The notes under the pieces: generated by a model
Databases searched by the model: none
Seen by the model: only the letters and a program-made list of their open reading frames with translations
Told to the model about the DNA's origin: nothing
Translations under genes and position numbers: made by a program
In this document: one piece after another, positions 2,842 through 18,407 of the stretch
Numbering within the stretch: the first letter of the stretch is position 1
Layout of the letters: each line of letters starts with the position of its first letter
Assembly (NCBI RefSeq): GCF_002109325.1
Contig: NZ_CP015348.1
Span: forward strand, 1,962,501-2,026,500
Direction of reading: 5' to 3'
Origin: Sporosarcina ureae
GTDB taxonomy: Bacteria; Bacillota; Bacilli; Bacillales_A; Planococcaceae
Length of the DNA: 64,000 bases

Positions 2842-3225
2842 TTATTTTCTCAAACTAAACATAGTTTGCATGAAGGCCAACAGTGCATTTTTATCTGCGT
2901 CAGATAAGTCTATTCCGTTAAAAGATACTTGTCCGCGTAAAATATTCTCAAGAGCAAGATCTTTAGGTTGTCTCTTGTTTTTTGAAGAAGAGATGGCTTG
3001 ATCTACTGTTTCGTTAGGTAAGTAACCTGCCAATATTAGTAACTCGTTTTTATCCGTCTCTAACGCAGCTGCCAATGCACAAATCGTTTCACGAGAAGGA
3101 TTGTATCTACCTTTCTCCAGTGAAGCAATGAAAGAGTAGCTCAAGTCAGCGCGATCTGCCAAATAACGTAAAGTCATTTCACGTTGTTCACGTAATTTCC
3201 GTAGACGATTTCCAAACTCGTTCAA
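2842..3225 (-). CDS. XRE-family transcriptional regulator
   Basis: A 127-residue DNA-binding protein with an N-terminal helix-turn-helix of the XRE/Cro type (about residues 4-60: RLRKLREQREMTLRYLADRA then SYSFIASLEKGRYNPSRETI). The C-terminal half is a short, mostly helical region of unknown role, perhaps for dimerisation. I start at the TTG at 3225, which has AAGGTGG eight bases upstream; the in-frame GTG at 3237 overlaps that ribosome-binding site. It reads away from the exopolysaccharide island, 800 bp from its first gene, so it could control the island, itself, or neither; the sequence does not decide this. Confidence 0.88.
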   Translation of the reverse strand: MNEFGNRLRKLREQREMTLRYLADRADLSYSFIASLEKGRYNPSRETICALAAALETDKNELLILAGYLPNETVDQAISSSKNKRQPKDLALENILRGQVSFNGIDLSDADKNALLAFMQTMFSLRK

Positions 3226-3277
3226 TAATATCCCCACCTTATCTATCTACAGTTTTTAGTAAAAAGTATGCATTACT

Positions 3278-3306: not shown

Positions 3307-3610
3307 GAACAAAGTCAAAAGTCTAATAGGTAAAAAGACTATTTTATTAAAAAAATTACACTATTCAAATAAACCTTCGATAGATCTCGTCTGATGATAG
3401 CTTAGATAAATATAGTTAAAGCGGATACAGCACTGTATTTGAATTTTTGCCTATATAGTTATTTTACTTTATTGAGTGGTGAACTTCTATACTCCATATC
3501 CCTTAGTTTTTAAATAGTTTACTTTCTATATGTATTTTTAACGAGCCTACAAAGAAACTCATGTATTAAAAATTCATTTTATTACGCGATAGAATTATCT
3601 GACAAATGTG

Positions 3611-3639
3611 TTGACAAAAAGAACAAAAGGGCATAATAT
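3611..3639 (+). promoter_or_regulatory. Strong sigma-A promoter facing the island
   Basis: A perfect TTGACA (3611-3616), a 17-bp spacer and TAATAT (3634-3639). It is the best promoter between the XRE gene and the island and points toward the island, so it may drive the whole operon with a leader of about 390 nt, or a separate small RNA. Confidence 0.65.
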
Positions 3640-4037
3640 GTGTTGTAAGGCTAAACAAAAAGTTTTTTTGCTCTCTTTGTTTAGAAAAACAACACAAAAT
3701 AATTCTTGATATAGAAAGGGGAGTAGAAGGGGTTCCGATGTATACGGCTACCCACATTATATATTCCACAGTTTACCTTTGCATCTGCTTACGTTTATCT
3801 TGTGTAGCATTTTAGCTTTTGTATTAGTTTGCTGGACAGTAATTATAAGGATGATTGTAGTGATAGGCGATAGTAAAAACATACGTAACGAAAAGCAGTA
3901 GAACTTTTATGTAGTCAGCGAACAGGTCTGAACTTCTTATTAACACAGGTCGTTCGGAATACTTAGTGTAATCTTTGTACTTTATACTAACAAATTTGAC
4001 TAAAAATGTGGTGACACAGAAAGTGCAGGTGTTGAGA
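3640..4037 (+). promoter_or_regulatory. Long leader with hairpins before the exopolysaccharide genes
   Basis: Directly after the promoter a long imperfect hairpin can form: GTGTTGT (3640-3646) with ACAACAC (3689-3695), and inside it CTAAACAAA (3651-3659) with TTTGTTTAG (3676-3684). A smaller stem pairs CGAAC (3919-3923) with GTTCG (3952-3956). No known riboswitch consensus is visible; I looked for the cyclic-di-GMP classes and did not find their conserved core. A 25-codon frame (3738-3815, AAGGGG upstream) is present but not convincing. From 3307 to 3610 I see only AT-rich sequence with no gene. Confidence 0.4.
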
Positions 4038-5510
4038 ATGCGTTATGAATCTAAGGAATCTCGCAACAAGAGCAAAATGAAGTCTACCACTCTTCTTTTA
4101 TTTCTAAGTTCTATATTGGTAGTAGGAGGGTGTTCACCTCTATTTGGAAATAGAGCAAATAATGACTCTAATGCAGTCGCATTAGCCAGTGAAAAGGTAG
4201 ACCACTATGTCGGTGAGAAAAGTGAGGCTCTTTCTTTTGTATGGACTACTAGAAAGGAGTTATCCCTAACATTTAACGGAATGGCTGATAAAAAGACGAT
4301 GTTGGAACTTTTGGATGCATTAGAGGAAAACAATATTCCTGCTACATTCTTTTTACCTGGTATTCGGGTAGCAGAAGAGCCTGAAATTGCTAAGTTGATT
4401 TTGGAACGTGGTCATGAAATAGAAAACAACACATTGAATCAAATGGAAATTCGGAATATGAGTTATGAACAGCTATATAAAGAAGTGAAACTGAGTAATG
4501 AAGTAATTCGAAATGAAACCGGTGTTACACCTCGTTATGTAAGGACTAGATCTGGTGATTACAATGAAGAACTGCAAGCAGTCACTGCACAACTGGGAAT
4601 GGATGCAGTCATTAATTACACAATCAATCCACGTGAAGGGGATATGCAAGGGGCTAAAACAATTGGAGACTATATTGAAAGATATATAACACGCGGGTCC
4701 ATCATTTCTATGCATACGGACATCAATCCCGAGGTAGTAGGATCCATTCCATATATCGCAAAAGCTGTAGAAAAAACAGGCTATAAATTGGTCCTGCTAA
4801 AAGAACTGGTCGATAGGGGAACTGAACGCAAATCACTGGAGCAAATTACAGGCTATGATCGAATCAAAATCAATCCAAACTATAAAGACATCAAAACCAA
4901 CATCTTCTACGACGCTCAAACGGAAGAAAAAGTTATTGCACTGACATTCGATGACTGGGCAAGCGACTATACAGTGTCCAAGATTCTAGACATTTTAAAA
5001 GAGGAGAAGGTTCCGTCCACGTTCTTCCTGATTGGTAAAGGTGTAGAGAAGAATCCAAACCTAGCACGAGCAATTTATGAACAGGGGCATGAAGTAGCAA
5101 GTCACTCATACGGTCATGAAGTTGTAACAGGGATGACCCCTGAAAGGTTACAAGAGGATTTGGTGAAATCCCACAGAGCGATTACCGAAGCTATTCAAGC
5201 AAGGCCCACAATGTTATTTCGTCCTGCTACAGGAGAAATAGATGAAGAAACTGCAAAGATTGCTATGGCTACAGGTTATAAAAGTATTGCATTATATGAT
5301 GTCACACCGTTTGACTGGGACCTGGAAAATGATGCAGATGAAATTGTAAAACGCGTCATCAATAAACGCGGAGATGGAAGCGTCATCGTACTTCACATCT
5401 TAGATGGCACACATACGATCGAAGCCCTACCTAAGGTGATTCATACATTACGCGAGGAAGGCTACACATTTAAACATATGTCCGAATTAATGCGAATGAA
5501 GAATAACTAA
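4038..5510 (+). CDS. Lipoprotein with two polysaccharide-deacetylase (NodB) domains
   Basis: Family role: removal of N- or O-acetyl groups from a polysaccharide outside the membrane. The 490-aa protein begins with a basic stretch and a hydrophobic segment ending in the lipobox VVGGC (Cys32). Two NodB-like domains follow. The first (about 75-260) is degenerate: LTFNGM (residues 77-82) replaces TFDD, and ENNTLNQ replaces the NHTxSH metal motif. The second (about 298-490) keeps TFDDW (303-307), SHSYGH (355-360), RPATG and VIVLHI, so it is probably the active one. I start at the ATG at 4038 with AGGTG upstream; a later ATG at 4077 would also keep the signal. It is the first gene of the island, 18 nt before the dehydrogenase. 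Confidence 0.88.
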   Translation: MRYESKESRNKSKMKSTTLLLFLSSILVVGGCSPLFGNRANNDSNAVALASEKVDHYVGEKSEALSFVWTTRKELSLTFNGMADKKTMLELLDALEENNIPATFFLPGIRVAEEPEIAKLILERGHEIENNTLNQMEIRNMSYEQLYKEVKLSNEVIRNETGVTPRYVRTRSGDYNEELQAVTAQLGMDAVINYTINPREGDMQGAKTIGDYIERYITRGSIISMHTDINPEVVGSIPYIAKAVEKTGYKLVLLKELVDRGTERKSLEQITGYDRIKINPNYKDIKTNIFYDAQTEEKVIALTFDDWASDYTVSKILDILKEEKVPSTFFLIGKGVEKNPNLARAIYEQGHEVASHSYGHEVVTGMTPERLQEDLVKSHRAITEAIQARPTMLFRPATGEIDEETAKIAMATGYKSIALYDVTPFDWDLENDADEIVKRVINKRGDGSVIVLHILDGTHTIEALPKVIHTLREEGYTFKHMSELMRMKNN

Positions 5511-5528
5511 TAGATGGAGATGGTATCA

Positions 5529-6848
5529 ATGGCGAATACATTATACGAGCGAATCGCAGATAAACAGGAAAAGATTGCGGTAGTTGGTTTGGGTTACGTA
5601 GGACTACCGGTGGCTATCGCATTTTCGGAAGTGGCTGACGTCATAGGTTTCGATGTTAGTGAAAAAAAGATCGATCAATTATTCGCTGGAATTGACGTGA
5701 CGGGCGATGTAGGAGACGAACGAGTACGCGATACAAGTATGCTATTCACTTCAGATGAAAAAGACTTACAAGATGCAAAGTTTTTCGTTGTCGCCGTTCC
5801 CACTCCTATTCAGTCAGGAAATCTCCCAGATTTAAAATTTCTTCAATTGGCCAGCCAAGCTGTGGGCCGAAATATGAAGAAAGGATCGATCGTAGTCTAT
5901 GAATCAACAGTTTATCCAGGGGTTACAGAGGAAGTATGCATACTCGAACTTGAAGCAGCATCCAACCTGAAGTTTGGAACAGATTTTACGGTTGGCTACT
6001 CGCCAGAGCGAATTAATCCGGGTGATCAAGTACATCGTCTTGAAAATATTGTGAAAATCGTCTCGGGTAGTGATAAAAAAACACTGGATACTGTGGCAAG
6101 CGTCTATGAAATGATTATTGATGTCGGTGTATACCGTGCGGAATGTATCAAAGTAGCAGAAGCGGCAAAAGTTATTGAAAATGCACAACGGGATATCAAC
6201 ATTGCGTTCATGAATGAACTTTCCATGCTGTTCAATCAAATGAAGATTGACACACAGGCAGTCTTACGGGCGGCGAAAACCAAGTGGAACTTCTTACCGT
6301 TCTCACCGGGCTTAGTAGGAGGACATTGTATCGGAATTGACCCCTACTATTTAACATATAAAGCAGAAGATTGCGGTTACCGATCTAGGATATTACTTGC
6401 GGGGCGTCATATCAATGATTCCATGGCAATATACATTTCCCAGCAAATCCTTAAAAATCTGGCGCAGCAGAAAGTGAATATGAACGATATTAAAGTAGGC
6501 GTACTGGGCCTAACCTTTAAAGAAGATTGTCCCGACTTCCGTAACACGAAAGTACTCGATATTATCAATGAATTAAAAGAGTATGGAATCGAACCTATTG
6601 TAGCAGACCCATTAGCAGATCCCCAAGCAGTGAAAGAAGAATGTGGTATTACACTAACGTCAGTTGATGAATTCAAAGACTTGCATGCGGTGATTGTGGC
6701 AGTACCTCATGAAACATACAGGGGACTTAGGCTGGAAGATTTCCAGCAAATGTTCAAGTCAGAGACTACGCAGCTATTAGTAGATATAAAAGGTATCTAC
6801 AATAAAAAGGAGTTTGAAGAGCAAAATATTCGATATTGGAGTCTATAA
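5529..6848 (+). CDS. UDP-N-acetylhexosamine 6-dehydrogenase (TviB/WbpO type)
   Basis: Family role: two-step NAD-dependent oxidation of a UDP-sugar to a UDP-uronic acid in the cytoplasm. The 439 residues show the Rossmann motif VVGLGYVGLP (18-27), the NADP/sugar-binding middle and the catalytic Cys267 in GGHCIGIDPYYL. KWNFLPFSPGLVGGHCIG and PTPIQSGNLPDL resemble the TviB/WbpO/CapL group, which uses UDP-GlcNAc or UDP-GalNAc, more than the UDP-glucose enzymes TuaD/HasB; this is judgement from motifs. Start chosen at the ATG at 5529 with GGAG nine bases upstream. It would supply the uronic-acid precursor for the GT2 synthase 15 nt downstream. Confidence 0.9.
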   Translation: MANTLYERIADKQEKIAVVGLGYVGLPVAIAFSEVADVIGFDVSEKKIDQLFAGIDVTGDVGDERVRDTSMLFTSDEKDLQDAKFFVVAVPTPIQSGNLPDLKFLQLASQAVGRNMKKGSIVVYESTVYPGVTEEVCILELEAASNLKFGTDFTVGYSPERINPGDQVHRLENIVKIVSGSDKKTLDTVASVYEMIIDVGVYRAECIKVAEAAKVIENAQRDINIAFMNELSMLFNQMKIDTQAVLRAAKTKWNFLPFSPGLVGGHCIGIDPYYLTYKAEDCGYRSRILLAGRHINDSMAIYISQQILKNLAQQKVNMNDIKVGVLGLTFKEDCPDFRNTKVLDIINELKEYGIEPIVADPLADPQAVKEECGITLTSVDEFKDLHAVIVAVPHETYRGLRLEDFQQMFKSETTQLLVDIKGIYNKKEFEEQNIRYWSL

Positions 6849-6863
6849 GAAAGGAGTGGAATT

Positions 6864-8660
6864 ATGGTGAAAGAAAAACTAACGACCAAAACAGTAGTCA
6901 GACACACTAGTGAATCGACACTTCTTCCGAACGTTCCAATAGTTCGAAGAGATGAAGAAGGCAACATGGTCGAAACAAATCGCCTGTTGAAAGATTCCTG
7001 CTCATGCGACTTCAACGTCATAATGAAAGAAAAAATGTTCGGCACTAAAATGAAAACAAAAGCTATCGAAATATCTAAAACTGAGCTGATTGTGGACTTC
7101 GATTCATCTATGAATGCACTGAAAGCCGGTGATGTTGTAAACTTACGCTTTAAAATTCCCGAAGGAACATTGGGCGAAGGGTACGAGTCGACAGTGAGAA
7201 TCCAAGGAACAGTTAGCTGGCAAGAAGTGAAGATGCCAAATGGTGAAGTAAGCTGGAAAATGGTATTCAGATTTGTTGAATCTTTGGATACGTACTTCCA
7301 AAGAACGAAATGGAGATTTATTACGACTATCACTCTTGCCAGTCTACTGCTCGTATCATTCTTCATTGTATTAATGCGTGTTGAAAGTTTAGTCTACTTT
7401 AAATTCAATAAATTCATTTACTTCTATAGTCTCATTGCAGCTACCTTCTTGCTGACTCGTTATATATTTGGAGCCTTATATAAAAATGTCCCAATTAACC
7501 CAAATTATCGTCCGGGTGTTTCCATTATCATTCCTGTCTTCAATGAAGAGGAATGGATTCATAAAACGATTTACAGCTGTCTAAATCAGAACTATCCTAT
7601 CGACAAGCTGGAAGTAATCGTTGTAGATGATCAGTCTACAGATCTCACGGTAGAAAATGTTTGGAAAGCGGTAGAAAAGTTGGGACAAGAAGATGAAGTT
7701 TACAAAATAAAAGAGCGATTACAAGTATACGTTATGCCGAAAAACGGTGGGAAACGCGAAGCTTTGGTTGATGGTGTAGCAATGGCTAAGCACGACCTCG
7801 TAGTATTCGTTGATTCTGATAGTTTTCTAGAACCAAACGCCATTTTGAATTTAGTCCAGCCGTTTCAAGATCCTAAAATGGGTGGCGTTGCTGGTCGAAC
7901 GGATGTTGAAAATAAATATGCAAACAGTATTACTAAATTACAAGTTGTACGTTATTACATTGCCTTCCGCGTCATGAAGGCAGCTGAATCATACTTTGAT
8001 TGCGTTACTTGTTTATCGGGTCCGCTTTCTTGTTACAGAAAATCCTTGATTCTCGAACACCAGGAAGATTGGCTCAATCAAACCTTCTTAGGCCAGCCAG
8101 CAACATTTGGTGATGATCGCAGTATGACCAACTTTATTTTACAAACACATCGCACAGCATATCAAGATAAAGCAATTTGTTCGACAGTTGTACCTGATAA
8201 ATTTGGTGTGTTTTTAAAACAACAAATGCGTTGGAAACGTTCGTGGTTACGTGAATCACTACGTGCAGGAACTTTTATTTGGAAAAAGGAAGTATTCATG
8301 GCTTTGTTCTTTTATGTAGGACTGATTGTACCGATAGCCGCGCCAGTAGTTGTACTGTACAACTTAGTATATGTACCGCTGTATCACGGTATATTCCCAG
8401 CGACATTTTTAATGGGACTATTCCTAATGGCCTTCATGATGAGCGCGGCTTACTTGTTCTTTAAAAGAAGCAGCTTGTGGATCTTCGGATTTGTCTTCGT
8501 GTTGATGTATGAAGCAGTTCTTTTGTGGCAGATGCCGGTTGCCTGGGTAACCTTCTGGAAATCTACTTGGGGAACACGTGATACACCACAAGACATCGAA
8601 GCACGAGAGAAGAAATTGGGGAAGAAGTTGAAAAAAGATCCTCTAACTATCAAATCATAA
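6864..8660 (+). CDS. Processive family-2 glycosyltransferase with PilZ-like N-terminus
   Basis: A 598-aa membrane synthase predicted to polymerise and extrude an exopolysaccharide. Order: a beta-rich PilZ-like region (about 48-138), membrane segments (about 152-171 and 183-203), a cytoplasmic GT2 domain (about 218-460), then four or so C-terminal membrane segments. Catalytic motifs are complete: VVDD (253-256), DSD (317-319), SGPLSCYR (385-392), GDDR (416-419), QQMRW (453-457). SGPLSxYR and GDDRxxTN are typical of hyaluronan-synthase, NodC and Alg8 relatives. The PilZ-like part keeps the fold pattern but I do not see a clean RxxxR, and EISKTEL replaces the D/NxSxxG motif, so cyclic-di-GMP binding is uncertain. 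Good RBS AAAGGAG. Confidence 0.92.
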   Translation: MVKEKLTTKTVVRHTSESTLLPNVPIVRRDEEGNMVETNRLLKDSCSCDFNVIMKEKMFGTKMKTKAIEISKTELIVDFDSSMNALKAGDVVNLRFKIPEGTLGEGYESTVRIQGTVSWQEVKMPNGEVSWKMVFRFVESLDTYFQRTKWRFITTITLASLLLVSFFIVLMRVESLVYFKFNKFIYFYSLIAATFLLTRYIFGALYKNVPINPNYRPGVSIIIPVFNEEEWIHKTIYSCLNQNYPIDKLEVIVVDDQSTDLTVENVWKAVEKLGQEDEVYKIKERLQVYVMPKNGGKREALVDGVAMAKHDLVVFVDSDSFLEPNAILNLVQPFQDPKMGGVAGRTDVENKYANSITKLQVVRYYIAFRVMKAAESYFDCVTCLSGPLSCYRKSLILEHQEDWLNQTFLGQPATFGDDRSMTNFILQTHRTAYQDKAICSTVVPDKFGVFLKQQMRWKRSWLRESLRAGTFIWKKEVFMALFFYVGLIVPIAAPVVVLYNLVYVPLYHGIFPATFLMGLFLMAFMMSAAYLFFKRSSLWIFGFVFVLMYEAVLLWQMPVAWVTFWKSTWGTRDTPQDIEAREKKLGKKLKKDPLTIKS

Positions 8661-8692: not shown

Positions 8693-10420
8693 ATGAAACA
8701 AAAAAATAATGAAGTATTAGATTATGAAATGAAGAATCGTAGGAAAGTAAGACGTTCGATTTTTCAATTAGCTATCTTACTGATCGTAGTCTTCCTTGTA
8801 TTCCAAACGTTTGTCGAAATGAATCGTTATGATGCAACAGATAGTAAGGAATGGAAAAACAAGAAAGGCTTTATTGCACTATCCTATCCTGGTGTATCGA
8901 GGGATGGTTCAGATTCACTGTTTGCTAAGAAGCAATTGCAACAGCAGCTGCAAGCGTTAACAGACCAAGGATTCGTGACCATCTCTCAACAAGATGTCTT
9001 GGACTTCTATAAGAAAAAGAAACCATTACCCGAAAAGGCATTGTTTCTTGCTTTTGAAGATGGCCGTACGGATACGAGTGTATTCGTCAATCCATTGTTG
9101 AAGAAATATAACTACAAAGCAACATTACTATCCTTTGCCAATAAATTGAATGAGAAGGATAAACGGTTTTTGCAGCCTTCACATTTGAAGCAGATGCAAA
9201 AAAGCGGTTTTTGGGAATTAGGCAGTAATGGCAACCGCTTAACATATATCAATATCTTCAATAAAGCAGGCACATTTCTGAACATACGCAATGATGAGGA
9301 AGTACTGAGTAAGGATGAAATCGATTCGTACAATCACTTTTCGATGGACTTTATCCGCGATCAGTACTTGATCCCTAGTGAAAATCGTGTAGAGATGGAG
9401 CGACGAATTACAAAGGATTACGAAGAGATGCGTCAAACATATCAAAAACAGTTGGGTTCGACACCGGGTGTCTACATGATCATGCACGCCAATGGGCTCT
9501 ACAATACGGCAAACAATTTGGTTACCGAAGTAAACGACAAGGAAATTAGAAAGACTTTCGATATGCACTTCAATCAAGAAGGAGACGCGTACAACACAAA
9601 GGATAATGAATTATATAATCTTACACGTGTCCAGCCCGTGCCTTCCTGGTCAACCAATCATTTGCTAATGAAAATTCAAAAAGACACCAACCAAAAAGTA
9701 GAATTTGTAAAAGGGAATGAAAAACAAGCGAGGCAATGGAAGGAAGTGGAAGGGGCGGCTGAGTTCAACGAGAACACCATTACACTTACATCAAAAGCAA
9801 GAAAGCAAGGGAAATTGATATTGACAGAGAGTAATGACAAAGACATTCAATTTACTGGCAAAGTGGGCGGGGATGTTGAAGGTCAACAATCCATTTTCTT
9901 ACGGCGTAGTGATAATGGTGATGGATATGTGAAAATAGCATTTGAAAATGATCAAATAATTATTGAAGAAAAAGTAGAAGGTCATTTGAATGAATTGCTT
10001 GATACCCAGTCAATTGAGATAATCAATCACGCTCAAGCGACTGATAGTGATGAGTCCACTTCAAGAAATGAAAATGAAGTGCAACAAGAAAAACTACCCA
10101 ACGAAAAGTATATAGAAATGAAGCTTCAAGATAATAAGTTATCCATTTGGATAAATGACAAAAAAGTTATCAATAAGCTAGCTATCAATCCAGATATTCA
10201 AGCTGGCAAACTAGCACTTGGTTCTACATGGATAACAGGTGACTTTAATGATCCAATCCATGATGCACACTTCAGTGATATCACAATCACTTCATTAGCA
10301 AATAAAGACGTTGCGCAAACTACATTATTCACAAATGAAATACAAAAACCACAGCAAGTCATGTATACGTTTGTCGGTTCTATCAAGTCTGCAATGAACT
10401 GGGTTGTTGATAATTTCTAA
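8693..10420 (+). CDS. Membrane-anchored deacetylase-like protein with C-terminal jelly-roll region
   Basis: A 575-aa protein with a short cytoplasmic start, one membrane segment (about 23-40) and an external part. Residues 58-330 follow the pattern of PgaB/YdaL-like NodB domains: a QL-x-LTDQGFVTIS block, then ALFLAFEDGR (117-125) where an active enzyme has TFDDG, and ELGSNG in place of the ExGxHT motif. It is therefore probably an inactive or altered deacetylase that binds the chain. Residues about 350-545 look beta-rich (KLALGSTW near the end), like a LamG/DUF1080-type carbohydrate-binding fold. AAGGAG lies eight bases before the ATG. It follows the synthase by 32 nt and probably acts on or guides its product. 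Confidence 0.75.
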   Translation: MKQKNNEVLDYEMKNRRKVRRSIFQLAILLIVVFLVFQTFVEMNRYDATDSKEWKNKKGFIALSYPGVSRDGSDSLFAKKQLQQQLQALTDQGFVTISQQDVLDFYKKKKPLPEKALFLAFEDGRTDTSVFVNPLLKKYNYKATLLSFANKLNEKDKRFLQPSHLKQMQKSGFWELGSNGNRLTYINIFNKAGTFLNIRNDEEVLSKDEIDSYNHFSMDFIRDQYLIPSENRVEMERRITKDYEEMRQTYQKQLGSTPGVYMIMHANGLYNTANNLVTEVNDKEIRKTFDMHFNQEGDAYNTKDNELYNLTRVQPVPSWSTNHLLMKIQKDTNQKVEFVKGNEKQARQWKEVEGAAEFNENTITLTSKARKQGKLILTESNDKDIQFTGKVGGDVEGQQSIFLRRSDNGDGYVKIAFENDQIIIEEKVEGHLNELLDTQSIEIINHAQATDSDESTSRNENEVQQEKLPNEKYIEMKLQDNKLSIWINDKKVINKLAINPDIQAGKLALGSTWITGDFNDPIHDAHFSDITITSLANKDVAQTTLFTNEIQKPQQVMYTFVGSIKSAMNWVVDNF

Positions 10421-10453: not shown

Positions 10454-11731
10454 ATGCTAACTACTAAAAACATCATATTCATTGTGATTTCCTGCCTCTT
10501 TTTCAGTGGATGTCAGGAAAAGAAACAGCAAACTATGGATTTATCAGTTCTAGATGAATTGAAGTTTTCAGCTTGGGTTACAGAATGGCAATGGCAAAGC
10601 GGAGTGGAGGATCTACGACAAGTTGAAGGTCTTGATAGAGCACAGGTTTTTGCAGCATATTTCGATGGGGAAGATCACATTTACTTCCGCGATAAAATGG
10701 ACGATGCCATTGCTGGTATGAAGAAGCTATCAAAAGAACGTAATATCCCGCTGGATTTAACGATTGTGAATGATCTGTTTCTACCCGATGGAACAGTTGT
10801 CCACAAAGATTCAGAGTTAATTGGACGATTGATAGAAACGCCTGAAAGTCGTAAACAACATATTGATAATATTTTGGAGTACATCGATACCTATCAATTT
10901 GAAGGTCTTGAAATAGACTACGAAAATATAAACGAAGAGGACTTGCCGAATTTGATCCAGTTTTATCAAGAACTGCATGTCGTTCTTGAAGCACAAGGAA
11001 AACCATTGCGTATTATATTGGAGCCTAACTTACACGTGGAACAATACAACTTTCCAACAGGACCGGTTTACGTCATGATGGCTTATAACTTACATGGGGG
11101 GCATTCCGAGCCGGGCCCAAAAGCGGATGACGAGTTCATCCGTAAAGTAGTGAATAAAATGAATACTCTTCCTGGGCAACCGGTTATCGCCTTATCAGCT
11201 GGCGGTTTTAGTTGGCAGCACGGAAATGGGGAAACGAAAACCCTCACAGAGATGGATGCAGAGGGTCTTGCTGAAACAGCGGATGTTGTACCTATGCGAG
11301 ATCCATCGAGTGGCAGCATGTACTTTGATTACCAAGATGCACATGGTGATACGTTTACTGTTTGGTATGGAGATCAGCAAACCTTGTATCAATGGATGAA
11401 GATTTCAGCTGAAGAGGGACAGACGAGGGTTTCTTTATGGCGAATGGGGGGAATGGAAACATCCACATTGGAATTCCTGAATAAAGCCGTCAATTATAAA
11501 GCGAAGGCGAGAGGAGAAAACGAGATGTTTGCCAATCATATAAAAGAACTTAGGAAACAAATGAATCTGACGCAGGCAGAGTTGGCCGAGCGAGTGGGGA
11601 TCGGACGTACAGCCTTATCCAAAATAGAGAACGGTGCGTACTATCCAAGTGCCAAAACAATGAAAAAGATTTCGGATGTACTTAATAAGCCAATTGGGGA
11701 AATATTTTTTAATACAGATATATCTTCATGA
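10454..11731 (+). CDS. GH18-like lipoprotein fused in frame to an XRE helix-turn-helix
   Basis: The first 350 residues look like an exported lipoprotein: hydrophobic N-terminus, lipobox FSGC (Cys20), then a GH18-like barrel with FEGLEIDYEN (149-158), in which Asp155 and Glu157 fit the end of the DxxDxDxE motif, and a VMMAYNLHG strand. Residues 358-425 are a standard XRE DNA-binding domain (NLTQAELAERVGIGRTALSK). An exported enzyme has no evident use for this domain. The HTH part begins with an ATG at 11525 preceded by GAGGAG eight bases upstream, so it may be made separately as a 68-aa regulator. Either a stop between two genes has been lost or an overlapping gene lies inside. GGCGGAG precedes the first ATG. 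Confidence 0.82.
   Translation: MLTTKNIIFIVISCLFFSGCQEKKQQTMDLSVLDELKFSAWVTEWQWQSGVEDLRQVEGLDRAQVFAAYFDGEDHIYFRDKMDDAIAGMKKLSKERNIPLDLTIVNDLFLPDGTVVHKDSELIGRLIETPESRKQHIDNILEYIDTYQFEGLEIDYENINEEDLPNLIQFYQELHVVLEAQGKPLRIILEPNLHVEQYNFPTGPVYVMMAYNLHGGHSEPGPKADDEFIRKVVNKMNTLPGQPVIALSAGGFSWQHGNGETKTLTEMDAEGLAETADVVPMRDPSSGSMYFDYQDAHGDTFTVWYGDQQTLYQWMKISAEEGQTRVSLWRMGGMETSTLEFLNKAVNYKAKARGENEMFANHIKELRKQMNLTQAELAERVGIGRTALSKIENGAYYPSAKTMKKISDVLNKPIGEIFFNTDISS
11525..11731 (+). CDS. Possible separately translated XRE regulator inside the GH18 gene
   Basis: This is the same reading frame as the end of the GH18-like gene. The ATG at 11525 has GAGGAG with an 8-nt spacing, as good as any other site in the operon. 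The 68-aa product would be a complete minimal HTH_3 regulator beginning MFANHIKELRKQMNLTQAEL. It would sit directly before two LAL regulators, a sensible place for another regulatory gene. Whether it is made independently of the fusion cannot be told from sequence. Confidence 0.5.
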   Translation: MFANHIKELRKQMNLTQAELAERVGIGRTALSKIENGAYYPSAKTMKKISDVLNKPIGEIFFNTDISS

Positions 11732-11799: not shown

Positions 11800-14358
11800 A
11801 TGAAAGTACATGGAGCAGATGAAAAAATTAAAATGCCACTAGCAAACGAAGAAATAATCTTCAGAAAAGACATAGAGGTTCCTATTCATATGAGGGTAGT
11901 GCGACTTACTATTATTCGTGCACCAAAGGGATACGGAAAGACGATGTTGCTAAGTAAATCACTCTTCGAGACAAAAGACTCAACGGCTTGGCTCACATTG
12001 GATGGAATGGATAATGATCCGGTTCGGTTTTGGACGTACGTGATTACCGCACTAGGTGGAATTGGGAAAGCGTTCGATACAGAAAAACTATTGTCATTCG
12101 TTAAAACTAGCCCACCTCATTTCATGATCGTCGACATATTGTTGAATGAACTAACTAACATGCATGGTAAAACCGCACTTATTCTAGATGATTATCATAT
12201 GATCACGAATCCAGTCATCCATAAAATGATGAACAGATTCATCGATTACTTACCACATCACGTAAAGCTGTTCATAGCGAGTCAAAATGAAGTACCACTA
12301 ACTGTTTCAAAGTGGCGGACAAAAGGTTGGGTATATGAAATTGGTATTCAACAACTACAATTTCAACTGCATGAAATTCGAGAGCTATATAGCAAGCATT
12401 CACCTGAAATGAGTCATTCTATATTTTTTTATCAGCAAGTATTACGTATTACAGAAGGTTGGGCTTTAGGGATCCAATTAATCCACTTGGCGGGAATAGA
12501 GGATGATCGTCAATGGGAGTCAAAGGACTCTTCCATATTATCACCCGTGGTAGCAAATCACTTACTCTATGAAGTTTTATCGAGCCTCAAGCCTTCGATG
12601 CAAGACTTTCTTATACGTACATCCATGTTGAATGAATTAATACCTGAAAAATGTAATCAGGTATTGGGTCGTAGTGATAGTGAAGATAGATTGAAAGATA
12701 TAGAAAAAAGAGGGCTGTTTATTCATCGGTTAGATAACAGTCATTTGACATACAGATATCATAGTCTATTTTCAACTGCTTTACAAAACGAGATGCATCA
12801 ACGTTTTTCCAAAGACTCTATCACTGAAATTTATACCAAAGCAGCGTACGTCGAATATGAACAAGGTAATTATGCTCTAGCAATAGAGCTAGCGGTAAAA
12901 GGAAAACTCTTCACCGTAGCGGATCATTGGATCGAAGTGAATCTAGTAAACATCGTTTTATCTAAACAAATAGAAATGTTTATGTGGTGGGTTAAGACGC
13001 TTCGTAAAAACTCCTTTGAAATTCATGTCGAAACGCTTGCCATATACGCATTCAATCTAGCCATGCAGTTTGAGATGGAAAAGGCAGGATCGATTGTTAG
13101 AGAGCTTGATCGTAGACATGAAAAAGATGGTTGGAAAAGTGAGACCGCATTGGAAGATGCATCACTAATTTTAGAGGTCGTAAAAGTCTTTATGTTGTGT
13201 ACGCAGTGTGGACCGACAGATAAGAGAGTCCTGTATTTACAGCAAAAGATTCACAATCACCCATTTTCAACAGATTCTCGATGGAAACATGTGTCCATCA
13301 TTTATAACCACTTTGAACCACAGTTGTTACGCACTAGTTTAGGCAACAGAGGTAAACTGTGCTCCATCAAACAATTATCTATATACAATGACACGTTGCG
13401 AAGTGATAAATTCCTCGCCCACAATTTAGCCGGGTATAGTTATGGTCTGCAAGCCGAAGTTCTTTATGAAATGAATCTACTGCCCGAATCAGAGCAATAT
13501 ATAGAAAAGGCAATGGAATATACTTACCGTCATGCCGACGCAGGCTTGTCTGTCCCCATGTACATTTTACAAGCGAAGATTTATCTAGACGGTAAACAGT
13601 TTATCAAAGCACAAGCCATACTCAACCACGCGATAGAGTCAGCGGTTAATCCCAACTGGCAATGTATTTTAATTACAATGAAAGCACTTGGTTATATTCG
13701 GGAAGGGTCTTTAGATCGGGCGGAATTTGAATTGAACAGATCATCAAGTCTAACCTACAAGCAGGCAGAGCCCCGCTTGGAATTCTGGATTCTCGTACGA
13801 GCAAGATGGCATATGGAAAAAGGCAATATCCGAAGAGCTCTTTATTATATTGATCAAGTGGCGCAAGAAGCTAAAGAAAATTTTCAATTGACAACTTTAA
13901 TAGAAGCAAAGGTATTGCGATCAATCTGCATGTGGCAAACCAATAAGAGAAAACTGGCGGTGGAGACACTTCATGAAGCACTCGAATTGGCAGTGAAGTC
14001 AGGTTATAAAAGACTATTCATGGATGAAAAAGCATTAAATTCAGTGCTGATCAGTTATATCAAAAGTCGAATGAATTTTGAACGGGCAGAATGGGAGACG
14101 GTCCCGCTTGTTTTTGCACAGTCGTTACGCACAGACCATATCACTCGTCCCACAACCACTCATCATAGTAAACCGAAGCTAACTCCGCGAGAGGAAGAGC
14201 TGATCAAAGCACTTGCGACAGGTTCAACAAATAAGGAAATAGCTGAACAACTATTCCTTTCAGAGGGAACCGTTAGAGTGTATTTATCGAAGGTGTATAA
14301 AAAGCTCAATGTCAGCTCGCGAACTCAAGCTATATTGCAAGTGAAGGATTGGCAGTAG
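11800..14358 (+). CDS. LAL/MalT-type LuxR-family regulator, first copy
   Basis: An 852-aa ATP-dependent transcription activator of the LAL class. It has an N-terminal STAND-type NTPase with Walker A APKGYGKT (41-48) and Walker B ILDDYH (128-133), a long helical, TPR-like sensor region, and a C-terminal LuxR helix-turn-helix (about 788-850: LTPREEELIKAL, TNKEIAEQLFLSEGTVRVYL). In family members such as MalT a small ligand, often a sugar, binds the sensor region and triggers DNA binding. GGGGAGAG precedes the ATG. It follows the GH18-HTH gene by 68 nt with no terminator between, so it is likely in the same operon. Confidence 0.9.
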   Translation: MKVHGADEKIKMPLANEEIIFRKDIEVPIHMRVVRLTIIRAPKGYGKTMLLSKSLFETKDSTAWLTLDGMDNDPVRFWTYVITALGGIGKAFDTEKLLSFVKTSPPHFMIVDILLNELTNMHGKTALILDDYHMITNPVIHKMMNRFIDYLPHHVKLFIASQNEVPLTVSKWRTKGWVYEIGIQQLQFQLHEIRELYSKHSPEMSHSIFFYQQVLRITEGWALGIQLIHLAGIEDDRQWESKDSSILSPVVANHLLYEVLSSLKPSMQDFLIRTSMLNELIPEKCNQVLGRSDSEDRLKDIEKRGLFIHRLDNSHLTYRYHSLFSTALQNEMHQRFSKDSITEIYTKAAYVEYEQGNYALAIELAVKGKLFTVADHWIEVNLVNIVLSKQIEMFMWWVKTLRKNSFEIHVETLAIYAFNLAMQFEMEKAGSIVRELDRRHEKDGWKSETALEDASLILEVVKVFMLCTQCGPTDKRVLYLQQKIHNHPFSTDSRWKHVSIIYNHFEPQLLRTSLGNRGKLCSIKQLSIYNDTLRSDKFLAHNLAGYSYGLQAEVLYEMNLLPESEQYIEKAMEYTYRHADAGLSVPMYILQAKIYLDGKQFIKAQAILNHAIESAVNPNWQCILITMKALGYIREGSLDRAEFELNRSSSLTYKQAEPRLEFWILVRARWHMEKGNIRRALYYIDQVAQEAKENFQLTTLIEAKVLRSICMWQTNKRKLAVETLHEALELAVKSGYKRLFMDEKALNSVLISYIKSRMNFERAEWETVPLVFAQSLRTDHITRPTTTHHSKPKLTPREEELIKALATGSTNKEIAEQLFLSEGTVRVYLSKVYKKLNVSSRTQAILQVKDWQ

Positions 14359-14387
14359 AACTACTATCGACAAAGGGGATGGCTATA

Positions 14388-16895
14388 ATGGTTGTATTAG
14401 TAGAATCGAAAATACAAAAGCCTGTTCATTTTGAAAAGTGGATTAGCAGGGAGAGTATGTTCACCGTCCGACATGAGGCGGTACAGTCAAACGTACTATT
14501 TATCAGCGCTCCAACGGGTTATGGTAAGACGACATTTTTAACTCGTTGGTCAGAAGAACTTGATGAACATATTGCATGGCTATCAGTCGATGAAAGCGAC
14601 AATCAAGCACTTCATTTCTTTGGATATATTATCTATACCGTTTATTCAGCGTGTAATTTGCTACCCAAAAAGAAATTACAAAAGAAGTTAGCCAAAGCAG
14701 ACCGGAATGAACTGGATGCTATGTGGAGCTACTATAAAGAACTAGACAGAGGTAAAGAAAAGCCGATACGATTGATCATCGATGACTTTCATCATATTAA
14801 TGATCCAGAACTATTGGAAATGATTCAATACTTTGTAGTAAATTTACCGAAATCATTAAAAATTTGCTTCGCCAGTCGCCATCTTCCCCCCTTTACACTC
14901 GCACTATGGCAATCCTTATTAACTGTCACTGAAGTTAGAATGCAGCAATTGCGCATTACGGATGATGATATGAAAAGCTACTTGAAACAACACCCTCAAC
15001 AGCAAGGATCAGTATGGCAAGAGTTTATTCAAACGGAAGGGTGGCCTGCGGGACTTCAAGAGGTTTTACAGTCACAAGGAATATCTCATCAATTGAGGTC
15101 TGACAGGCATCGACAATTCACAATGAATGTCCTAACAAATGATTTATGGAGCAATTTTTCAGGCTCCGCACAGCATTTCCTCTTAGTGACATCCATCTTG
15201 GACACAATGAATCAACAGATATGTGATGCCTTACTCGAAAGTAAAGAGAGTCTTATTCATTTAAAGAATTTAGAAGAAAAAGGGTTTTTCATAGAAAGTG
15301 ATTCAGAAATAGATACACAATATCGCTATCATCCACTTTTTGCTGTAGCGCTACGGCAAAACTTGCAGAAAAACCATTCCAAGGAATTTGTATCTGCTTT
15401 GCATAGGAAAGCTGCAGGGATATACTTTCGGCAAGGTAATGTTGTGGAAGCCATCACCCATGCCTTAAAGGGGCAAGCGTACCCACTTGCAAGCACTTGG
15501 ATGATGCATTACGGTGAGGATCTTATAAAAAATAAAAAAACTGCATCTTTTATCTCCTGGTGTAAAGAATTTGAAAAAGTTCATATTCCATTGGCTTTTG
15601 ATCTTCAACTGCTCTTTGCTTTTGCCCTTCTAGCTGAGCATCAAGTGGATGAAGCAGATCACGTCATGAACCAAATGACGGCGCAAGGGAATCGGAAAGA
15701 ATGGAATGCTTTTACCGAAAGAAGTCGATCTGCTGCATACGACTATTTCTTAATCAAATCCTATATCACAATCATTCGAATGGGTGGCGTGACAGAAGTA
15801 GGACAGTGGCTGCAAAAGGGCTTTGATTTACATGTAGAAAAAAGCTCCAAACTATACGTGCTACCACTTCAATTTAATAAAGTAGAGCCTGTATTATTAC
15901 GAACACCACTAGGTTCGGCCAAAAAATTAGGCATACAGCAAACTCTACTAGAGATACAATCTTGCCAGACAAATAAACTGTCCATAATAGGTTATTATCA
16001 TGGTATTCAAGCTGAAACATTGTACGTGACAGGTTCAATAAAAGAAGCTAGACAGCAACAAGTAGAAGCGCTACTTCTAGCACATCATTTCCAAGATCCA
16101 GGTCTGTTGATACCTATGTATGTATTGAGTTGTAAATTGCATATAGCGAATGGTGAGATGGAAAAAGCACATGAGACGATCCGAAGCGCTTTACTATATA
16201 CCGAAGACGGCTATTGGAAAGGGTTTTTATACGCATTCGAAGCATTCCTGCACTTGAAACAAGACCATCTAGAAGATGCAGAAATGGCGCTCTCGATGAT
16301 ACAACGTGACTATGCAGAAGGTATACAGCAACATCCTTTTGTTACGCTTGTAGAAGCAAGACTGCTTTTGAGAAAAGGGCAATGGGAAGAAGCATTGGAG
16401 AAAACATTGTGTGTGAAGTTCGAAGCTTTAGAAGAAAGGCAAGTAGTAACATATATTGAGGCTACGATCTTAGAAAGTTCTTGTTACGCGCGTATGGCAT
16501 ACTGGCCCGAAATGGCTCAGTCCTTACAAGATGCAATGGCTTATAGTAAAGAATATGGCTATACGCAGTTATTCGTGGAAGAAGACAATATGGAGGATAT
16601 GCTAAAAGAATATGTGAAATTACGTAAGCAACAAATTGATAGGGAATGGACGCAGGTTCCACACTTCTACGTAGAACGCTTGATACAGGCCACAAAAGAA
16701 AGGAACCCTGTCCTAGAGTTGCTAACACCACGTGAACAGGAAGTGTTCTCACTTCTTGTGCTAGGTGAAACCAATTATAAAATAGCAAAAAACCTAGCTT
16801 TGACGGAAGGGAGCGTGCGGATCTATTTAACTTCTATATATGAAAAGCTATGTGTCAATTCTAGGAAGCAAGCCATGTTAAAGGCGTATAAATAA
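14388..16895 (+). CDS. LAL/MalT-type LuxR-family regulator, second copy
   Basis: An 835-aa paralogue of the preceding gene with the same architecture: Walker A APTGYGKT (41-48), Walker B LIIDDFHH (129-136), helical repeat sensor, and LuxR HTH (LLTPREQEVFSLLVLGETN near residue 775 onward). The two diverge clearly in the sensor region, so they may respond to different signals or form a mixed complex. I start at the ATG at 14388, which has AAAGGGG nine bases upstream and lies 29 nt after the first copy; an in-frame TTG at 14349 overlaps that gene and lacks a binding site. It is the last gene before a strong terminator. Confidence 0.9.
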   Translation: MVVLVESKIQKPVHFEKWISRESMFTVRHEAVQSNVLFISAPTGYGKTTFLTRWSEELDEHIAWLSVDESDNQALHFFGYIIYTVYSACNLLPKKKLQKKLAKADRNELDAMWSYYKELDRGKEKPIRLIIDDFHHINDPELLEMIQYFVVNLPKSLKICFASRHLPPFTLALWQSLLTVTEVRMQQLRITDDDMKSYLKQHPQQQGSVWQEFIQTEGWPAGLQEVLQSQGISHQLRSDRHRQFTMNVLTNDLWSNFSGSAQHFLLVTSILDTMNQQICDALLESKESLIHLKNLEEKGFFIESDSEIDTQYRYHPLFAVALRQNLQKNHSKEFVSALHRKAAGIYFRQGNVVEAITHALKGQAYPLASTWMMHYGEDLIKNKKTASFISWCKEFEKVHIPLAFDLQLLFAFALLAEHQVDEADHVMNQMTAQGNRKEWNAFTERSRSAAYDYFLIKSYITIIRMGGVTEVGQWLQKGFDLHVEKSSKLYVLPLQFNKVEPVLLRTPLGSAKKLGIQQTLLEIQSCQTNKLSIIGYYHGIQAETLYVTGSIKEARQQQVEALLLAHHFQDPGLLIPMYVLSCKLHIANGEMEKAHETIRSALLYTEDGYWKGFLYAFEAFLHLKQDHLEDAEMALSMIQRDYAEGIQQHPFVTLVEARLLLRKGQWEEALEKTLCVKFEALEERQVVTYIEATILESSCYARMAYWPEMAQSLQDAMAYSKEYGYTQLFVEEDNMEDMLKEYVKLRKQQIDREWTQVPHFYVERLIQATKERNPVLELLTPREQEVFSLLVLGETNYKIAKNLALTEGSVRIYLTSIYEKLCVNSRKQAMLKAYK

Positions 16896-16913
16896 TATAG
16901 GACGATACAAATG

Positions 16914-16947
16914 GCGATACTTCTTACATCAGAAGTGTCGCTTTTTG
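16914..16947 (+). terminator. Terminator of the exopolysaccharide/LAL operon
   Basis: GCGATACTTCT and AGAAGTGTCGC form a strong hairpin with a short loop followed by TTTTTG, 18 nt after the second LAL gene. Confidence 0.85.
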
Positions 16948-16982
16948 CTATACTGAATGAAAGTAAAGGAGTGTAAAAACAC

Positions 16983-18407
16983 ATGAAGTATCGAGATCGC
17001 CCACTTGTACAGGCGTTGCAGGATTTTAACGACAAAAACCCCATTTCACTCCATGTACCTGGCCATAAAAATGGGATGTTATCTGATTTGCCAGAGGCTC
17101 TGCGTCAAGCACTTGCATATGACGTAACAGAGTTGACAGGACTCGATGATTTGCATGAGCCGACAGAAGCGATTAAACAAGCTGAAGATAAGCTGTCCAA
17201 TCTTTATGGAAGTGACCGTAGTTTCTTTTTGGTGAACGGTTCGACAGTAGGGAATCTGGCTATGCTGTATGCGACGGTTCAACGGGGTGACTCAGTTATT
17301 GTGCAACGCAATGCACATAAATCGATATTTAATGCACTGGAACTAACAGGTGCCAATGCGGTATTTCTTTCCCCAGATTGGCATGAGCAAACACAAACGG
17401 CTGGAACGGTATCGTTGAGAAGTATAAGAGAGGCACTCGCGCAGTATCCGAATAGTAAAGCAGCTATTTTAACTACGCCTACGTATTACGGAATGGTAAA
17501 TAAAGATCTGAAAGCGATTATAGAAATTTGTCACAGCCATAACATACCGGTTTTAGTGGATGAAGCGCACGGTGCGCATTTTATAGCGAGTAAAGAATTT
17601 CCAAAGAGCGCACTAGAACTCGGAGCGGATGTTGTCGTTCAGTCTGCTCATAAAACACTACCTGCTATGACGATGGCATCTTTTTTACATGTTCGTTCGC
17701 AATTTATAGAGTTGGAACGAGTGGCTCATTACCTACAAATGTTGCAGTCGAGTAGCCCGTCCTATTTATTAATGGCATCTTTAGATGATGCAAGATATTA
17801 TGCAGAGATGTATGATGAGGATGACTTTGAAAGTTTTCAACTATACAGAAGTAGTTTAATTCGAGGTTTATCTACTATAAATCACGTCGAAGTAGTGGAG
17901 ACTGACGATGAACTAAAGTTGCTTATACGTGTAATAGGTCATACCGGGTTTATCTTGCAGGAAGCATTGGAACAACAGGGTGTGTATACGGAGTTGACGG
18001 ACTTATATCAAGTGCTACTAATACTGCCTTTAGTAAAAGCGAAACATGTAGAATCATGTGCTCATATAATCGACAAATTTAGGCGAGCAGTGGATAGTGT
18101 AACAGATCGAGAAGATACGTCAGTAGAAATCCATAACTTCTTGCCAATTAGTACTCCGACATCGGTAGTCTATACGGCAAACCAAATTCATACGATGGAT
18201 ACAGAGTGGGTAGATATTGAGAAGGCAACAGGAAAAGTGGCGGCAGATGCCGTTATTCCCTATCCACCAGGCATTCCTCTAGTATGTGCAGGGGAGCGCA
18301 TTAGTCGCGAGCACGCTGAACAAATGCATAAACTCTTGACGGCTGGCTGTAGATTTCAGGGAGCATTCAATATTGAGAGGAAACAAATAATAGTAGTAGT
18401 CGAATAG
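16983..18407 (+). CDS. yaaO: PLP-dependent Orn/Lys/Arg decarboxylase-family protein (YaaO)
   Basis: A 474-aa fold-type I PLP enzyme of the ornithine/lysine/arginine decarboxylase family. HVPGHKNG near the N-terminus, NGSTVGN, VDEAHGAH and SAHKTLPAMT (the Schiff-base lysine) are all present. YaaO of B. subtilis has the same length and neighbour (tmk). Its substrate is not certain; arginine or lysine decarboxylation to a polyamine precursor is the family expectation. AAAGGAGTG lies before the ATG. It begins the conserved core after the island and is followed 15 nt later by tmk. Confidence 0.9.
   Translation: MKYRDRPLVQALQDFNDKNPISLHVPGHKNGMLSDLPEALRQALAYDVTELTGLDDLHEPTEAIKQAEDKLSNLYGSDRSFFLVNGSTVGNLAMLYATVQRGDSVIVQRNAHKSIFNALELTGANAVFLSPDWHEQTQTAGTVSLRSIREALAQYPNSKAAILTTPTYYGMVNKDLKAIIEICHSHNIPVLVDEAHGAHFIASKEFPKSALELGADVVVQSAHKTLPAMTMASFLHVRSQFIELERVAHYLQMLQSSSPSYLLMASLDDARYYAEMYDEDDFESFQLYRSSLIRGLSTINHVEVVETDDELKLLIRVIGHTGFILQEALEQQGVYTELTDLYQVLLILPLVKAKHVESCAHIIDKFRRAVDSVTDREDTSVEIHNFLPISTPTSVVYTANQIHTMDTEWVDIEKATGKVAADAVIPYPPGIPLVCAGERISREHAEQMHKLLTAGCRFQGAFNIERKQIIVVVE

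Follow-up and report, generated by a model that had tools for sequence, protein, structure and literature searches.

A single open reading frame in the window, a stretch of 64,000 nucleotides from Sporosarcina ureae, joins a GH18-like lipoprotein to a small XRE-type helix-turn-helix (HTH) regulator. The arrangement probably arose by loss of the stop between two neighbouring genes, with translation of the second gene retained from inside the longer frame. Internal translation taken alone has the stronger standing and is highly likely: the HTH is very probably still made as a separate cytoplasmic protein from its old start, because its Shine-Dalgarno sequence (SD) and ATG are invariant, its dN/dS is 0.015 compared to 0.11 for GH18, and two lineages kept the HTH after the loss or breakage of GH18. 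The HTH is predicted to be a gene within a gene, and automatic annotation of a ‘lipoprotein-HTH fusion’ product would hide a regulator.

Structure of the fused reading frame

The open reading frame at 10454–11731 (+) runs over 425 codons from ATG to TGA without an internal stop, which confirms the initial annotation of a lipoprotein signal and an XRE HTH in one open frame. Residues 1–345 (10454–11488, +) make up the GH18-like lipoprotein, which elsewhere in the Planococcaceae is a stand-alone protein of about 350 amino acids. The Pfam profile Glyco_hydro_18 (PF00704) matches residues 120–331 (E 9.6e-10, 39 bits against a cut-off of 29.6). By inspection, residues 1–20 close with SCLFFSGC, in which FSGC (residues 17–20) resembles a lipobox, and an N-terminus of this type was also seen in the GH18 proteins of relatives. 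The catalytic motif DxxDxDxE aligns as EGLEIDYE, with the last Asp and the Glu present and an earlier Asp replaced by Glu. Relatives of this part in the PDB are YdhD (3cz8) and 5jh8.

A linker of 12 codons (11489–11524, +), delimited by codon-register alignment with the related genome G074, leads to an XRE/Cro-CI regulator of 68 amino acids that begins at an internal ATG (11525–11731, +). HTH_3 matches residues 363–417 of the fused protein (E 7.6e-19), and the 68-residue piece alone matches the whole profile (E 2.4e-20). An AlphaFold model based on 13 related sequences gave a confident barrel for the GH18 part, with an alternating helix/strand fold, a helix spanning the junction at a pLDDT of about 62 and a C-terminal domain of five helices.

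Conservation of the fusion and its origin

The window genome (G000) is a Sporosarcina genome of 3.38 Mb on a single contig. The uninterrupted fused frame was found in six species-level genomes, namely this one and G019 (the S. ureae type strain DSM 2281), G018, G075, G001 and G024, the last five with a protein identity of 84–87%. In a seventh, G090, the same junction codons are free of stops and GH18 is otherwise broken; this is a metagenome assembly whose frameshifts cluster in GH18. The GH18 gene occurs in 42 of the 261 family genomes, fused copies included. Outside the fused clade, the open frames listed for it are about 325–366 amino acids long, except for one of 434 and the broken copy of G090.

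In the relatives examined, GH18 closes an operon consisting of a deacetylase, a dehydrogenase (not always included), a GT2 synthase, a PgaB-like deacetylase and GH18 itself. In the window these genes are PDA1, a polysaccharide deacetylase lipoprotein (3975–5510, +; Pfam PF01522), UGD, a nucleotide-sugar dehydrogenase (5514–6848, +; NCBIfam TIGR03026), a NodC/PgaC-like GT2 polysaccharide synthase (6864–8660, +) and PDA2, a PgaB-like polysaccharide deacetylase (8693–10420, +), the latter two assigned by profile matches.

A search for the two parts as separate genes in relatives, as had been proposed, was successful. In G074, GH18 and HTH are direct neighbours, co-linear and sharing one frame, with two in-frame TAA codons between them, while in G072 they are likewise adjacent and separate. 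The linkers of G074 and of the fused genomes have an equal number of codons in the codon-register alignment, the TAA codons aligning with TAT (11495–11497) and GCG (11501–11503) of the window. The co-linear arrangement of G074 with its two in-frame TAA codons therefore argues for a single origin of the fusion by stop-removing substitutions. In an Mfd tree, drawn without G028, G074 branches outside the fused clade and G030 within it, as (G074,((G000,G090),((G019,G018),(G001,(G075,G030))))), with bootstrap values of 99–100% on the relevant branches. With G074 outside, the stops were therefore lost once, after its split.

The starting point would have been an exopolysaccharide operon that closed with a GH18 lipoprotein gene and, next to it, a small XRE gene. 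Substitutions in the ancestor of the S. ureae species group would then have removed the in-frame stop or stops between the two, leaving one frame. Judged from the sequences, the fusion was in place before this species group diverged and is conserved in seven genomes, so that it is not the recent accident considered initially. Within the linker at least 14 substitutions have occurred, and no stop was regained in the seven genomes where roughly one would be expected. These changes are too few for significance, and the long form may have a role. Neither this locus nor a directly matching case of stop loss was found in searches of an open-access library.

Probable internal start of the HTH and selection within the clade

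As the initial annotation had it, the HTH starts at ATG 11525 with a good SD: AGGAG (11512–11516, +) ends 8 nt before it. The stretch AGGAGAAAAC together with the ATG is invariant in the seven fused-frame genomes, and linker codons on both sides of it change amino acids. The motifs AGGAG or GGAGG at 5–10 nt precede only six of 1936 other in-frame internal ATG codons (0.31%) in long open reading frames of the fetched regions, compared to the HTH start in all six fused genomes counted, so the internal SD is beyond chance. At −9.1 kcal/mol, this SD pairs with the anti-SD as strongly as ordinary starts in the vicinity do. The start site is only modestly more accessible than the average. The N-terminus of the predicted short product coincides with those of the stand-alone orthologs and of the complete, 66-residue CylR2. 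Stand-alone orthologs or homologs are present in G074, G030, G072, G009, G016, G077 and G083. Inside GH18, a search for an internal HTH promoter gave four promoter-like sites against 4.1 by chance, none of them just upstream of 11525.

In 15 pairwise comparisons of fused genomes, dN/dS was 0.015 for the HTH, 0.114 for GH18 and 0.50 for the 12-codon linker, with a dN of 0 at a dS of 0.76 in the HTH core. GH18 is under purifying selection in this clade. Decay has set in twice. In G090, sister to the window genome, GH18 is disrupted by several frameshifts and a deletion of about 98 bp, and UGD and GT2 are gone through a deletion that fuses PDA1 to PDA2; the promoter, SD, ATG and HTH (94% amino acid identity) are intact and both LuxR genes behind the HTH are full length. 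In G030, which is nested in the fused clade, the whole polysaccharide operon is gone, and the operator pair described below was kept together with the HTH, which is preceded by an SD (GGGGAG) and by stops. From these sequences, a lipoprotein start able to feed the HTH is absent in both genomes.

Ribosomes entering at the GH18 start would yield an exported lipoprotein with a useless or tolerated HTH tail. Others, on the same mRNA, would use the internal SD and ATG to produce a cytoplasmic HTH of 67–68 residues, like the stand-alone orthologs. Of the two explanations that had been offered as alternatives, a lost stop and translation of the regulator from within the enzyme gene, both stand, jointly: the first is visible in the stops of G074, the second is very probable from the conservation of SD and ATG.

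Operator-like palindromes at the operon promoter

The polysaccharide operon is preceded by a promoter at 3611–3639 (+), consisting of TTGACA (3611–3616), 17 nt and TAATAT (3634–3639), a layout that is alike in 13 genomes. Two operator-like palindromes of 17 bp with the form TGTT-N9-AACA were located here, 32 bp apart: O1, TGTTGACAAAAAGAACA (3609–3625, +), overlaps the −35 box and O2, TGTTGTAAGGCTAAACA (3641–3657, +), lies just past the −10 box. An inverted third site O3, TGTTGTTTTTCTAAACA (3678–3694, −), is the RNA hairpin partner of O2. In RNA form, O2 and O3 make a strong hairpin (3640–3696; −20.1 kcal/mol, z −4.1) at the point where the operon mRNA is predicted to begin; the O2/O3 repeat recurs in the leaders of G074 and of most clade members.

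The same promoter structure is found upstream of the stand-alone HTH in G009, G077 and G083, where the operator pair immediately precedes the HTH gene. In the window genome the paired structure occurs once (3609–3657), heading the polysaccharide operon 7.9 kb upstream of the HTH. The exact pair is present in 12 of the 261 family genomes, and the reversed control gave no match. Among the 14 genomes that clearly have the HTH, 11 have the pair, against one of the 54 other genomes of the genus (Fisher test, 2.7e-9, or 6.5e-6 if the S. ureae clade is treated as a single case). Of the three remaining carriers two have the pair with one mismatch, and in G016 O1 is degenerate. G023, the twelfth genome with the exact pair, has no HTH; it is 83% complete, with broken reading frames. 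The pair is missing from the HTH-less versions of the operon in G014, G087, G137, G153 and G156.

All genomes that clearly have the HTH carry it downstream of an operator-type promoter, either distally in the polysaccharide operon or as the first gene of another cluster, which, named by eye from the translations, contains polysaccharide genes in G077, G083 and G016 and an asparagine synthase in G009. The asparagine-synthase cluster behind the operator pair is lasso-peptide-like by eye, and is present with the HTH in G009 (L068, 10360–12711) and without it in G023 (L094). A wider regulon of single palindromes was rejected, their genome-wide count of 29 being close to the 27 of the reversed control. 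The cluster in front of the operon is therefore the only one considered meaningful.

Predicted role of the HTH and the divergent XRE gene

A second XRE gene of 131 amino acids (2842–3237, −) shares its 15 genomes with the operator pair and is divergent from the operators every time; G023 has a part of it beside the operators. The HTH is present in 14 of these 15 genomes.

The HTH is most likely a CylR2-like local regulator of the polysaccharide operon, possibly together with the divergent XRE protein, because of the paired palindrome at the operon promoter, which was found in 12 of the 261 genomes, 11 of them with the HTH. Local autoregulation is the simplest reading, and the positions of the sites make repression probable. 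The HTH would dimerise like CylR2, bind TGTT-N9-AACA over the −35 box and the +1 position and, as a distal cistron, repress its own operon, alone or with the 131-residue protein; these steps are less certain than internal translation. That the HTH itself binds O1 and O2 is predicted with moderate confidence only, lowered because the divergent XRE gene co-occurs with the operator pair at least as well. The latter may encode the operator-binding protein or a partner. This leaves the case for internal translation untouched.

The strongest competing explanation is that the HTH is translated from its internal start while the palindromes are the operators of the divergent XRE protein, the HTH having another site of action or serving as partner or antagonist, in the manner of SlrR towards SinR. 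It is a real but lesser possibility. The constant, always divergent association with the operator pair agrees with it, as do the membership of both proteins in the XRE family and G023, where operators and part of the XRE gene remain and the HTH is absent. However, G023 is an incomplete genome, the HTH accompanies the operators almost as faithfully, and where the HTH gene stands alone the operators directly precede it. With the HTH as the favoured regulator, the locus would provide a polysaccharide operon that is spread across the family with a predicted regulator and operator.

An 85-residue protein is encoded beside the 131-residue XRE gene (2382–2639, −), and by eye a similar one is located near the G016 and G023 loci. 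The XRE gene with its neighbour looks like a recurrent regulatory module before surface-polysaccharide and other clusters. The window genome also contains a second, stop-containing copy of the 131-residue type of XRE gene (G000:C1:153513-153767).

Alternative roles of the long form

The long exported form and the internal repressor could both matter, with one frame held open by selection. We consider this rather unlikely; if true, the level or rate at which the gene of the exported enzyme is read would set the level of the repressor of its own operon, for instance by crossing ribosomes competing with initiation.

Still less probable is a function of the fusion as one membrane-linked GH18-HTH protein, of which the HTH would bind DNA before or instead of export, or after proteolytic release. 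The frame still open in seven genomes, the purifying selection on GH18 and the continuous modelled helix over the junction with both domains folded are consistent with such a protein. Against this, the HTH with its own SD is kept where GH18 is frameshifted (G090), absent (G030) or separate (G074, G072), the lipoprotein signal would place the C-terminus outside the cell, and the linker shows little constraint at the protein level. The tethered protein releasing its HTH after failed export, as the initial annotation had suggested, likewise has no support, the HTH being conserved in G090 and G030.

A recent neutral stop loss with the HTH as a functionless passenger would fit the weakly constrained linker, but is very improbable given the purifying selection on the HTH, without amino acid change in its core, and its survival after GH18 was lost. 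A stop removed by sequencing or assembly error, for which nothing was found in favour, is ruled out, since the junction is equally open at identical codons in seven genomes, including DSM 2281.

Comparison with known systems

SinR and SlrR are XRE regulators of matrix polysaccharide genes in Bacillus, and CylR2 of Enterococcus faecalis regulates a cytolysin operon. CylR2 (PDB 1utx, 66 amino acids) aligns over residues 1–61 with residues 1–61 of the HTH; it is also a one-domain XRE protein and shows that this length suffices for a complete protein. It differs in operator and target, and the HTH is nested in a lipoprotein gene. The SinR structures 1b0n and 5tn0 are among the structural relatives of the HTH. 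As with SinR/SlrR, a second, longer XRE gene is located beside the promoter here, but the HTH has no oligomerisation domain, the operators are different and no orthology is claimed.

Two known systems produce a short protein from inside a longer gene. RpnS is the C-terminal domain of the longer RpnL frame, separately translated from an internal in-frame start (PMC10327210). Like the HTH it is a short C-terminal product, but RpnS inhibits its own long form, whereas the HTH is unrelated to its GH18 host, with a predicted exported long form and a predicted cytoplasmic, DNA-binding short form. The unfused ancestral arrangement of GH18 and HTH is, moreover, visible in a sister species. Cas11 is a small protein translated from an internal ATG with an SD near the 3′ end of cas8 or cas10 (PMC11899642 and works cited there). 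Cas11b resembles the HTH in this position of its start; Cas11 joins the complex of its host protein, while the GH18 and HTH products are predicted to differ in compartment and job. Compared to known genes within genes, the novelty would be that the loss of a stop turned two existing, unrelated genes into one frame whose products are predicted to end up on either side of the membrane. The origin of genes within genes is rarely visible. Here one genus shows, at one locus and with the same spacing, a separate ancestral state, fused descendants and two decays that kept only the inner gene.

Neighbouring genes

Behind the HTH, two MalT/LuxR-type regulators were assigned by Pfam and synteny (11800–14358, + and 14349–16895, +); G019 is without both. 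The block of these two genes and a decarboxylase (11800–18407) is about 91–93% identical to that of G090 and mostly only about 58–75% to those of other clade members, unlike the dehydrogenase and GT2 of the latter (about 86–93%), which suggests replacement by recombination or fast evolution of the block. The GT2 synthase has an N-terminal extension of about 200 amino acids without a Pfam match (6864–7500), perhaps PilZ-like. The mfd gene of G024 (G024:C5:41803-45334) consists of two overlapping frames, while its relatives have one. Imperfect repeats of about 21 bp around GCTCTAT are located at 1800–2280, just downstream of the rRNA operon.
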